Assembly: GCF_900156885.1 (NCBI RefSeq)
Contig: NZ_FTOY01000010.1
Coordinates: forward strand, 62,001 to 126,000
DNA length: 64,000 nucleotides
Origin: Limosilactobacillus caccae
GTDB lineage: Bacteria > Bacillota > Bacilli > Lactobacillales > Lactobacillaceae
Direction of reading: 5' to 3'
The notes beneath the pieces were generated by a model. It searched no databases. It was not told the DNA's origin and saw only the letters and a list, made by a program, of their open reading frames with translations. Both the position numbers and the translations under genes were made by a program. Shown here one piece after another: positions 54,950 through 58,082 of the stretch (position 1 is the stretch's first letter; every line of letters begins with the position of its first letter).

Positions 54950-55915
54950 ATGGCAAAAAAGAAAATGATTCTTGATTTAGATACTGGTGTTGATGACGCT
55001 TTAGCAATTGCTTATGCGCTTGCTGACCCAGAAGTTGATCTGATTGGGATCGTCAGCTCATACGGTAACAACACGTTGGACGTTTGTGCTGAAAACAGCC
55101 TTAAGTTACTCGAATTATTAGGACACACTGATATTCCAGTATTTAAGGGCTTGCCACACTCTTGCACATCCGACCACTTTGATGTTATGCAAGTATCTAA
55201 GGACATCCACGGTAACAATGGTATCGGGGAAGTTGAATTACCTGCACCAAAACGTGCAATCGAAGAAGAATCCGGGGTAGACTTCTTCATCGATGCCGCG
55301 CACAAGTATGGTAAGGACTTAATCATCATCCCTACTGGTCCAATGACCAACCTTGCCGCTGCCCTCAAGAAGGATCCAGAAATTGCCAGCTTGATTGGTA
55401 ACGTTACATTCATGGGTGGTGCCTTAACAGTTGATGGTAATGTTACCCCAGCTGCTGAAGCCAACATCAACCAAGATGCAAAGGCTACTGATGAAGTATT
55501 TAAGTCAGGTCTTCCACTGACGATGGTTGGCCTTGATGTTACTTTACGGACACTCTTGACCAAGAAGGAAACTCAACAATGGCGTGAACTCGGCACTACG
55601 GCTGGTAAGGCGTACGCTGACATCACTGACTTCTACATCGACGCTTACTACAACCTCGACATTGATAAGCGTGGTTGTGCCCTTCACGACCCACTAGCAG
55701 TTGGTGTTGGTATCGACCCATCATTCGTGTCAATGATCAGTCTCTTCATGCGTTGTGAATACGATCCAGATAGCCCATTCTACGGCCGGACAGTTGGTGA
55801 CAACGCTAAGTTAAATGACCCTAACCCGAATGTTAAGGTTGCGGTTAACGTGGATAAGGAACGTTACCTTAAGGTCTTCATGGACCACTTGACCAACTTA
55901 TTCAAGGAAAACTAA
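54950..55915 (+). CDS. Inosine/uridine-type nucleoside hydrolase
   Basis: A 321-residue IU-nucleoside hydrolase that splits ribonucleosides into base and ribose. DLDTGVDDALAIAYAL near the N terminus is the Ca2+-binding signature. HDPLAV near residue 245 holds another conserved ligand. The exact base preference cannot be told. TTGGAGGA precedes the ATG. A candidate cre site suggests control by carbon source. Confidence 0.92.
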   Translation: MAKKKMILDLDTGVDDALAIAYALADPEVDLIGIVSSYGNNTLDVCAENSLKLLELLGHTDIPVFKGLPHSCTSDHFDVMQVSKDIHGNNGIGEVELPAPKRAIEEESGVDFFIDAAHKYGKDLIIIPTGPMTNLAAALKKDPEIASLIGNVTFMGGALTVDGNVTPAAEANINQDAKATDEVFKSGLPLTMVGLDVTLRTLLTKKETQQWRELGTTAGKAYADITDFYIDAYYNLDIDKRGCALHDPLAVGVGIDPSFVSMISLFMRCEYDPDSPFYGRTVGDNAKLNDPNPNVKVAVNVDKERYLKVFMDHLTNLFKEN

Positions 55916-56062: not shown

Positions 56063-57022
56063 ATGCCAAATTCAAAATTATTAGCACAGGCGCGTCGCAG
56101 CTGGGAAGAAGCGGGACTAGCCAACGACTTTGTTTTCAATAAGGTGATGTTGGATAAGCGAATCACCTTGGAAGTCCTGCGTCGGGTCCTGCCAGCCTTG
56201 CATCTTAAACGAGTTAAGCAAGTGGTTAGCCAGCAGGAGTTCACCAGTAGTCATGACGCTAAGGGAGTGCGGCTGGATATCTACGTTGAGGATGACCAGC
56301 ATAATCGCTTTGACATTGAGATGCAAGTAGTAGATAAGCATAATTTGCCGCAGCGGATCCGTTTTTACCATGCGAACCTTGCGATGGACTGTTATGAAAA
56401 GGGGCAAAATTACGCAACGGCGGATAATTCTTACGTGATCTTTTTCTGTTGTTTCGATCCGTTCGGCTTCGGGGAGCAAGAGTACCAGATTGAGCGGTCG
56501 ATTAAAGGCCATCCTGAGGCCACATACGCAGACGGGGAGCAAACCCTGGTATTTGACGTGACAAGCCTTTGCCGGGAAGTGAACCCTAAGTTGCAACAAT
56601 TTCTCGACGTGATTGCGAACCGCCAGGTTGGTGACGACGACGATTTTATCGTACAATTAGAGAAGAGAATCACCTTCGTTAAGCAAAACCGGAAATGGAG
56701 GAGAGAGTATATGCAACGGTCATTGTACGAGATGGATATTGAGAATAGCATTGCGTTGGCTAAGGAGCAAGGGTTAAGCCAAGGATTAGAAAAGGGGCTG
56801 AGTCAAGGTAAGGCTGCTGGAATTAAAGAAGGTCGAGCAGCCGGGATCAAAGAAGGTTTGAGCCAAGGTAAAGCAGCAGCGGAATATGAAGAACGAGTAG
56901 CGATGGTGCGTGGCCTGCTTAATATGGGGCAGCAACACGACCAGATAATCAATTTCCTTGTTAAGACTCGTAACCTTACAACTAAACAAGCAGAAGGTTA
57001 TTATCAAGCTGCAATAAAGTAA
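56063..57022 (+). CDS. Rpn-family PD-(D/E)XK nuclease (recombination-promoting nuclease/putative transposase)
   Basis: A 319-residue protein with an N-terminal PD-(D/E)XK nuclease-like domain (PDDEXK_2 type): FVFNKVM, then VRLDIYVEDDQ with FDIEMQ carrying the acidic catalytic residues. A C-terminal tail has G-x-x-x-G-type repeats (GLSQGLEKGLSQGKAAG). The start at 56063 follows AGGAGGTG. Rpn proteins are DNA endonucleases linked to phage defence and recombination, held in check in Enterobacteria by a small protein made from an internal start. A strong internal start is visible here too (56711). It is not a transposase of an insertion sequence. Confidence 0.88.
   Translation: MPNSKLLAQARRSWEEAGLANDFVFNKVMLDKRITLEVLRRVLPALHLKRVKQVVSQQEFTSSHDAKGVRLDIYVEDDQHNRFDIEMQVVDKHNLPQRIRFYHANLAMDCYEKGQNYATADNSYVIFFCCFDPFGFGEQEYQIERSIKGHPEATYADGEQTLVFDVTSLCREVNPKLQQFLDVIANRQVGDDDDFIVQLEKRITFVKQNRKWRREYMQRSLYEMDIENSIALAKEQGLSQGLEKGLSQGKAAGIKEGRAAGIKEGLSQGKAAAEYEERVAMVRGLLNMGQQHDQIINFLVKTRNLTTKQAEGYYQAAIK
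56692..56832 (+). repeat. Direct repeat A (internal start and tail of the Rpn gene)
   Basis: A 141-base segment about 95% identical to 57031-57171; it includes the ribosome site and internal ATG. Confidence 0.92.
56711..57022 (+). CDS. Candidate intragenic small protein from the Rpn gene (RpnS-like)
   Basis: An in-frame ATG at residue 217 of the Rpn protein is preceded by GGAGGAG (56697-56703) at a spacing of seven, an ideal ribosome site inside a coding region. It would give a 103-residue C-terminal protein, MQRSLYEMDIENSIALAKEQ onward. In Enterobacteria such a product acts as the antitoxin of the full-length nuclease. That the same start and ribosome site are kept in a separate downstream copy (57050) supports its use here. 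Translation is inferred, not shown. Confidence 0.6.
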   Translation: MQRSLYEMDIENSIALAKEQGLSQGLEKGLSQGKAAGIKEGRAAGIKEGLSQGKAAAEYEERVAMVRGLLNMGQQHDQIINFLVKTRNLTTKQAEGYYQAAIK

Positions 57023-57030
57023 CCTCTTCA

Positions 57031-57171
57031 GAAATGGAGGAGCGAGTATATGCAACGATCATTGTACGAGATGGATATTGAGAACAGTATTGCGTTGGCT
57101 AAGGAGCAAGGGTTAAGCCAAGGATTAGAAAAGGGGCTGAGTCAAGGTAAGGCTGCCGGGATTAAGGAAGG
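57031..57171 (+). repeat. Direct repeat B (duplicated Rpn tail)
   Basis: Second copy of the 141-base segment, starting 9 bases after the Rpn stop codon. Confidence 0.92.
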
Positions 57172-57325
57172 CTTGAGCCAAGGCAAAACTAAGGCTGAAC
57201 GACAAATAATTCAAAAGCTAATCAATGGCGGAAAGTCCCGCGAAGAAGTAATTAACTTTATGGAACAAATCCTCGAGCTTTCACCAGCCCAAGCTGAGAA
57301 ATACTATCAAGAATTAACCCAATAA
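57050..57325 (+). CDS. Free-standing Rpn tail protein (RpnS-like paralogue)
   Basis: A 91-residue protein whose first 40 residues are the same as the Rpn tail from its internal start, with its own TGGAGGAG site. After SQGK the sequence differs (TKAERQIIQKLINGGKSREE against AAEYEERVAMVRGLLNMGQQ) but the final helix is still alike (QAEKYYQ against QAEGYYQ). No nuclease domain. It may be a second antitoxin, a modified inhibitor, or the remains of a second Rpn gene. Confidence 0.7.
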   Translation: MQRSLYEMDIENSIALAKEQGLSQGLEKGLSQGKAAGIKEGLSQGKTKAERQIIQKLINGGKSREEVINFMEQILELSPAQAEKYYQELTQ

Positions 57326-57359: not shown

Positions 57360-57397
57360 TAAAAAAGGGACGGGCAATTTGCCAGTCCCTTTACTAT
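57360..57397. terminator. Terminator between the Rpn locus and the Asp23 operon
   Basis: AAAGGGACGGGCAA pairs with TTGCCAGTCCCTTT between convergent units. Confidence 0.8.
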
Positions 57398-57886
57398 TTA
57401 TTGAACACGGGCCGCATCGTCTGACTTGTCAGATGTCAATGCTTCCTTGGTCGATTCGGCAACGCCGCCGACCCGATCTTGTAAACTAACCGATGCCTTT
57501 TCATGCTCAGCCTTGCTCCGAACATCGACGACGTTTACATTCACTTCGATAACATCTAATCCCGTCATCTCCTTAACGGACTTAACGATGCTCCGCTTGA
57601 TCTCTTCGTATAACTTTGTGATATCCACCTTATATTCGGCAACGATATCCAAGTCAACTGCAACTTGCTCCTGACCGACTTCTACGTCAATTCCCGTTGT
57701 CACGTCAGAAGTGTTAACGATCTTTTCTGCAATATTAGAAAAGAAACCACCGTCAACAGTTAGGAGACCTTTTACATCTTGAAGTGACATACCGATAATT
57801 TCTTGAATAACTTTATCCTCAAAAGTTAAAGTACCTTTTACTCCTTCAACCTTCGGACTGCTTTGACTTTTACTTTGTGTTGCCAT
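57398..57886 (-). CDS. asp23: Asp23/Gls24 family envelope stress protein
   Basis: A 162-residue protein with an Asp23 domain (about residues 15-125): GTLTFEDKVIQEIIGMSLQDV, then the repeated beta-alpha unit ending in VNVVDVRSK. These abundant proteins coat the membrane through AmaP and respond to alkaline or general stress. I start at 57886, after CTGGAGG. It is the last gene of the operon csbD-amaP-DUF2273-asp23. Confidence 0.9.
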   Translation of the reverse strand: MATQSKSQSSPKVEGVKGTLTFEDKVIQEIIGMSLQDVKGLLTVDGGFFSNIAEKIVNTSDVTTGIDVEVGQEQVAVDLDIVAEYKVDITKLYEEIKRSIVKSVKEMTGLDVIEVNVNVVDVRSKAEHEKASVSLQDRVGGVAESTKEALTSDKSDDAARVQ

Positions 57887-58082
57887 TCTTCTTCCTCCAG
57901 ACACGTTTTATCTTCATATTCCATCCTTGGTAATCCCACACAAATCCAAGAATAGCGCCAATCACGACCACAATAATCAATAAAATAGTCTTCCATAAGC
58001 CAACAATTAAGAATAATAACGCTAATAGAAACGCAACACTTGCGCCAATTGCGGGTGCTAAATACCAGCGATCTGAATTCAT
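57870..58082 (-). CDS. DUF2273 small membrane protein
   Basis: A 70-residue protein with two helices (about residues 8-26 and 29-47) and a basic C terminus (MKIKRVWRKK). DUF2273 proteins are found between amaP and asp23 genes in many Firmicutes. It overlaps the asp23 start by 17 bases. It may help anchor the Asp23 coat. Confidence 0.87.
   Translation of the reverse strand: MNSDRWYLAPAIGASVAFLLALLFLIVGLWKTILLIIVVVIGAILGFVWDYQGWNMKIKRVWRKKNGNTK

Follow-up and report, generated by a model that had tools for sequence, protein, structure and literature searches.

Why should an Rpn nuclease gene be followed at once by a small gene that begins like the tail of the nuclease? This question is raised by a locus of Limosilactobacillus caccae lying in a 64,000-nt stretch of contig NZ_FTOY01000010.1 (positions 62,001 to 126,000; called the window here, and all four- and five-digit coordinates without a contig prefix are counted from its first letter). 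According to the ORF list, profile matches and an AF2 model, rpnL at 56063..57022 (+ strand) encodes an Rpn nuclease with a V-type tail; the reading frame ending at 57022 gives 319 aa from the ATG at 56063, or 339 aa if an upstream TTG is used. Profile match, alignment and model assign a probable PD-(D/E)XK nuclease domain to 56063..56710 (+). Just behind the domain, an in-frame ATG at 56711 is preceded with 7-nt spacing by the Shine-Dalgarno sequence GGAGGAG (56697..56703, +), and sequence and tail comparison point to an internal rpnS of V-type, 103 aa, at 56711..57022 (+). A free-standing tail gene of K-type follows at 57050..57325 (+; ORF list and tail comparison). It encodes 91 aa, and its own GGAGGAG (57036..57042, +) again lies 7 nt before the ATG at 57050. 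Repeat comparison shows that the two starts lie in a direct repeat of 141 nt, 95% identical, with copy 1 at 56692..56832 (+) inside rpnL and copy 2 at 57031..57171 (+) at the front of the free tail. We call this repeat the start block and propose copy 1 as a recombination site. A previous sequence-only reading had pointed out the internal ATG with its ribosome site, the repeated block and the separate 91-residue frame, and all three hold. We give a probability of about 0.6 to the view that an RpnL/RpnS toxin-antitoxin built from tail cassettes is present here, the free tails being alternative cassettes that are swapped via the start block.

The assignment to the Rpn family is clear from profiles. 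The window protein scores 51.4 bits against PF12784 (cut-off 27.4) and 86.2 bits against TIGR01784 (cut-off 52.1), and residues D72, E86 and Q88 are invariant across an alignment of 58 sequences. In the AF2 model (mean pLDDT 87.5) an alpha/beta domain is followed by one long helix and two short ones, predicted at residues 210-287, 292-301 and 307-318. The internal start, residue 217, is placed near the head of the long helix, which by tail alignment and model also contains eight four-residue repeats (56774..56869, +). A long first helix with variable four-residue repeats followed by two short helices is what characterizes RpnL/RpnS tails, and the model predicts just this. The best PDB structure matches of the model are two restriction enzymes, EcoT38I (E 0.022) and EcoO109I (E 0.07), both weak and none at or below 0.001. 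A PDB sequence search with the single Rpn sequence gave nothing, and one with the alignment gave only one weak unrelated match (E 0.47). The AF2 model of the free tail alone is poor (pLDDT 63.9) and too weak for use. Matches of the tails to FliH stay far under the cut-offs and are put down to charged helical repeats.

Gene-within-gene RpnL/RpnS toxin-antitoxins of E. coli, namely RpnA-E and RpnP2, have been described in a preprint (Zhong et al. 2023, PMC10327210); an older paper on E. coli Rpn exists as well (PMC5350276). Translation of rpnS from the internal start has been demonstrated in E. coli, where RpnS was also produced from an introduced C. difficile gene (PMC10327210). Separate rpnS genes, ypaA/rpnES and rpnCS, have been described as well, and YpaA/RpnES is made as a protein (PMC10327210). 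The window locus and its relatives resemble these systems in the in-gene tail start, which with its ribosome site is present at the window rpn tail as sequence, in the four-residue repeats of the first tail helix and, at times, in a separate tail gene downstream. They differ in three respects. In the E. coli paper each downstream copy groups with the tail that lies upstream of it, whereas here the end type differs from that of the adjacent tail in seven of eight free tails, which do not look derived from it. Moreover, up to three free tails stand in a row here, with three end types distributed over seven nuclease copies, and a change of tail at an orthologous locus can be mapped to around the start block.

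The putative internal start recurs in the genus. We drew rpn genes from 105 stretches, seven from the genome under study and 98 among the matches listed in 49 other Limosilactobacillus genomes, with one genome per species, so that strain-level change was seen in E. coli only. The nuclease profile matched 129 ORFs; only genes with a full domain plus a tail of 40 aa or more were kept, which left 82. As a raw count among the matches listed, all 82 full genes have an in-frame ATG no more than 8 residues from the aligned domain end, together with a Shine-Dalgarno-like core. The core is GGAGG in 52 genes, AGGAG in 18 and a 4-nt match only in 12, and these last may be chance. In genes with the pattern W-R-x-x-x-M at this place the arginine codon is AGG in 45 of 45, while AGG makes up 3.5% of arginine codons in 41 window genes. 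Since rpn genes are related, 82/82 and 45/45 are not independent events. AGG is the codon that an internal ribosome site would call for here.

Further rpn copies are present in the same genome. Contig C2, to which the window belongs, carries seven intact copies, whose 648-nt nuclease domains are 85.8-94.9% identical, and one broken copy, together with nine free tails that have a start, eight of them intact. The seven intact copies and the eight intact free tails all carry MQRSLYEMDIENSIALA, with GGAGG before the ATG. After this common front and 1-13 four-residue repeats, the tails finish in one of three types, V, K or R, with end identity of 86-100% within a type and 14-32% between types. The window has a fused V tail and a free K tail. 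The other arrangements are fused V with free K and R (L021), fused R with free K (L022), fused V with free R (L024b), fused K with free R, V and K (L025), and tandem fused R and K with no free tails (L024a). In L024c a broken rpn has a fused R tail and a truncated tail behind it. This broken copy (C2:328236-329077) stands in tandem with an intact one, and its truncated tail is K-like. Two distant rpn genes are present in the same genome, L026 (C11:36458) and L027 (C4:611767), with 29% identity, and no free tail was found behind either.

Tail types appear to have been exchanged among these copies. Identity of nuclease domains barely tracks the tail type, being 90.2% for copies of the same type (5 pairs) and 88.9% for different types (16 pairs); in the two closest domain pairs, L021/L024a (94.8%) and L024b/L025 (94.9%), the tails differ. 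At the same time, the V end that is fused in L024b is found free in L025 without a single difference over 120 nt, and the K end that is fused in L025 is found free in L021 with one difference over 120 nt. From the start block on, the free K and R tails of L021 are collinear with the fused K and free R tails of L025 (87.1% over 788 columns). The window tails show the same pattern. Identity between K and V ends is 25-32% in the final 44 aa, and the free K end aligns locally with its neighbour's V end at 37% over 35 aa; with the fused end of another rpn copy of this genome it is 92.7% identical over 55 aa. The earlier suggestion was that the internal antitoxin had been duplicated as a separate gene, the C terminus of which diverged later. 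Copying followed by divergence in place does not explain ends that are nearly identical when fused at one locus and free at another, and this suggestion is not supported. The evidence favours another option raised at the time, namely that the free tail is a donor for tail switching. We regard the start block, the cassettes and the three end types as shown at the level of sequence, and exchange of tails between fused and free positions as well supported.

Homology of the window copy to the other copies starts 46-66 nt before the ATG and stops at the last tail or no more than about 30 nt from it; the upstream part corresponds to a leader common to the rpn copies of this genome (55997..56062, +, from homology between copies). 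L024c and L025 have about 140 nt upstream in common. The rpn of L025 is preceded by a hairpin-like sequence that is found elsewhere after an R tail. A nucleoside hydrolase gene lies 5' of the window locus (54950-55915, + strand) and an Asp23-family gene 3' of it (57398-57904, - strand). A plasmid search with the window locus in near mode gave zero matches.

The surroundings of the free tail were also scanned and folded. A scan of the + strand found no terminator between the rpn stop and the free tail, although the same scan missed the hairpin 3' of the free tail (57364..57392, +), which by folding (-18 kcal/mol, z -4.2) is a probable terminator. The scan gave two sigma-70-like sites, at 56316-56344 and, just 5' of the free tail, at 56975-57004; as 2.2 are expected in shuffled sequences, neither counts as evidence for a promoter. 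We assume that free tails are transcribed by read-through from upstream. By sequence and folding, the 27-nt spacer between the rpn stop and the free-tail start (57023..57049, +) contains CCTCTTC, which can pair with the Shine-Dalgarno of the free tail, and folding of the spacer onto the ribosome site is predicted at -10.5 kcal/mol (z -2.0). TAACC(T/C)CTTC or a close variant is present in four out of four cases in this genome where a V-type tail has another tail next. Judging from the bases involved (57020-57042), such pairing could couple translation of the next tail to termination at the V stop.

Do free tails serve the nuclease next to which they stand? In this genome seven of eight, the window's included, have an end type other than that of the adjacent nuclease, and the number of repeats differs in all eight; at the window it is eight in the fused V tail and six in the free K tail. 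It is important to note that the type mismatch is within random assortment (mean 5.6, P 0.25) and that in this genome chance would also give the repeat mismatch (P 0.61). The idea that free tails avoid the type of their neighbour was therefore rejected, and the mismatches count only against a dedicated antitoxin. For RpnC of E. coli, the addition of a single repeat was enough to abolish neutralisation (PMC10327210). Together with the difference between K with six and V with eight repeats, this makes the free K tail an unlikely antitoxin of the adjacent nuclease. The proposal of a Gram-positive Rpn system with an internal tail antitoxin stands as to the nuclease, the probable internal start and the free tail gene, whereas the role of that gene as a dedicated antitoxin is doubtful.

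Among the matches listed in the genus, 19 of the 82 rpn genes have at least one free tail downstream, 25 free tails in all. L096 and L103 represent the same locus in two genomes (99.2% identical), so that 24 of the 25 are separate; the 45-aa truncated free tail behind the broken rpn of L024 was left out, and L073, L126, L137 and L153 qualify only weakly as free tails. Compared with the neighbour's tail, ten ends are alike (at least 60% identity over at least 34 aa), 11 unlike (at most 54%) and four intermediate or too short in alignment (L091, L093, L126 and L153), among the matches listed. With ten of 25 free tails being of the same type as their neighbour, reservoirs of other types are not universal in the genus. 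Length differs from the neighbour's tail in 25/25 of the free tails listed, by only 2 residues in L088 and L137. A 5-nt Shine-Dalgarno core with a start is found in 15 of the 25 listed (8/8 in the window's genome), and none at the L073 free tail. L142 (G044:C1), of a distant Rpn subfamily, has three same-type free tails in a row, all unlike the fused tail in length.

One pair of orthologous loci shows a tail in both positions. L088 (genome G022) has a nuclease with tail Y followed by a free X, and L085 (G041) has the nuclease with tail X and nothing behind. Identity is 93.6% in the nuclease (598/639) and 94.7% in the 3' flank (856/904). The fused tail of L085 is 91.0% identical to the free tail of L088 (202/222, no gaps), compared with 81.4% of 194 aligned nt and 62 gap columns for the fused tail of L088; the two tails of L088 are themselves related to each other. 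Of the informative sites, those up to -23 from the ATG and that at +5 resemble the in-gene copy, those at +26 and +29 are mixed, and those from +38 onward resemble the free tail. The changeover would thus lie around the start block, but it is not sharp, with mixed sites between +5 and +29. A second case is L096/L103 (nuclease with Z, free X) against L093 (nuclease with X, free W), where the outer flanks are unlike.

A corresponding difference is found between strains of E. coli. We read nine strains, K-12 and eight of 60 listed records (5371 matched), none labelled O157, O145, STEC or ETEC. In six of them an E-type end is fused and a Y-type end is free, with different repeat numbers in 6/6; in K-12 free YpaA and the tail of RpnE itself are one four-residue repeat apart and the ends differ. 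The RefSeq record of K-12 labels RpnE as inactive. In the other three the Y-type end is fused to RpnE and there is no free tail. The gene 5' of rpnE is glpC in 9/9 strains; 3' of the locus lies yfaU in six strains and, where the free tail is missing (three strains), a fragment with the annotation aldolase/citrate lyase family protein. In a collection of 5426 E. coli genomes (71-base queries, E 1e-8) 5363 genomes gave a match to the Y end and 3101 to the E end, so at least 2262 genomes show Y alone, with fusion of Y checked in three. A search of E. coli with the Y-type fused end as query could not tell the arrangements apart. The preprint mentions that rpnS can be lost, either through deletion or because its region becomes fused to the N-domain (PMC10327210), and this type of event is thus partly known. 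Open-literature searches brought up a single study of RpnL/RpnS, and alone they do not allow us to claim priority for tail switching, subscription papers being outside their scope.

If the cassette interpretation is right, the following course of events can be proposed. One nuclease domain would carry the first of several tail cassettes in a row, while the rest follow as small genes; in this genome all cassettes have in common their Shine-Dalgarno, the ATG and the first 21 or so codons. The start block would play three roles, as the internal start of the antitoxin, as the beginning of the long helix and as homology for recombination between cassettes. A crossover between the in-gene block and a block downstream or at a distant locus would give the nuclease another tail, and the antitoxin encoded by the tail would change along with it. 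By analogy with E. coli, RpnL would be a toxic nuclease that RpnS silences in a complex containing two RpnL and two RpnS, and the fit between the two proteins would be set by tail type and repeat number. The cassette at 57050 would be mainly an alternative tail; its protein, if made, would fit the nuclease only once a switch had taken place. From the E. coli systems we infer that the window locus may likewise have toxicity, antitoxin action and a part in phage defence. We further infer that the locus is translated and that switching is selected rather than incidental. It is important to note that insertion of a cassette gives the same picture as deletion, the direction of change being unpolarised. 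Decayed cassettes demonstrate that loss does happen: degenerate remnants of more tail cassettes lie behind the last tail of the L021, L024 and L025 arrays, and from the sequences tail arrays seem to grow and shrink. Metagenome variants P0002 and P0127 (longest contig 167529 bases in both) suggest repeat changes at the window locus, if they are neighbours. The orphan C-terminal modules of Rhs and CDI toxins (PMC3967940, PMC3150448) are comparable in the way they work. They are displaced modules behind a gene and can be fused to its main body by recombination. Rhs and CDI toxins are contact-delivered and have separate immunity genes, whereas here the tail itself would encode the antitoxin.

A more specific form of the cassette interpretation is tentative. 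It holds that this is a switching system in which one crossover changes both tail and antidote, while the free proteins are ready antidotes with the exact end and repeat number. Improbable, we think, is an immunity repertoire, in which free tails are antitoxins acting in trans against Rpn nucleases of the same end type, either resident or arriving by transfer. Every end type that stands free at some locus does occur fused at others in the same genome, and all eight counted free tails keep GGAGG and ATG. Constraint at the protein level points the same way: in nine free-free pairs of the same type changes are mostly silent (dN 0-0.043, dS 0.19-0.59), and purifying selection on free tails would fit an antitoxin function equally well as a cassette. 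One free tail, L025_o2 (V, eight repeats), even fits the window's nuclease in both type and repeat number. This is however the only such match to any resident nuclease among the eight free tails, a one-repeat difference was enough to prevent neutralisation in E. coli RpnC (PMC10327210), and in the genus no more than 15 of the 25 free tails listed have the 5-nt core, with none at L073.

Also improbable, and slightly more so, is that free tails are leftovers of tandem rpn duplications cut down by recombination, whether translated or not, with no role of their own. Complete tandem rpn genes do exist in the genome (C2:318218 and 319296), as do a broken rpn and the degenerate tail remnants behind arrays, and several free tails retain a few codons of the nuclease 3' end. 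As to origin, these codons partly bear out the earlier alternative of a decayed second Rpn gene; decay does not fit the eight of nine free tails that are intact small genes in this genome. The excess of silent over amino-acid changes in free-free pairs speaks against leftovers too, though exchange with fused copies could import constraint. Least probable is the original suggestion of an extra antitoxin gene copy for the adjacent nuclease: the shared start block 27 nt past the stop, the scan without an intervening terminator and the production of YpaA/RpnES in E. coli (PMC10327210) favour it, and against it stand the differing end type and repeat number at the window, the unequal tail length in all 25 free tails listed and the unequal repeat number in all six E. 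coli strains with a free tail, K-12 included.

If the cassette interpretation is true, a nested toxin-antitoxin pair can change its specificity without passing through an unprotected intermediate. It would also account for the large variation of Rpn tails within species, and for the existence of separate rpnS genes despite the mismatch in repeat number with the neighbours examined.
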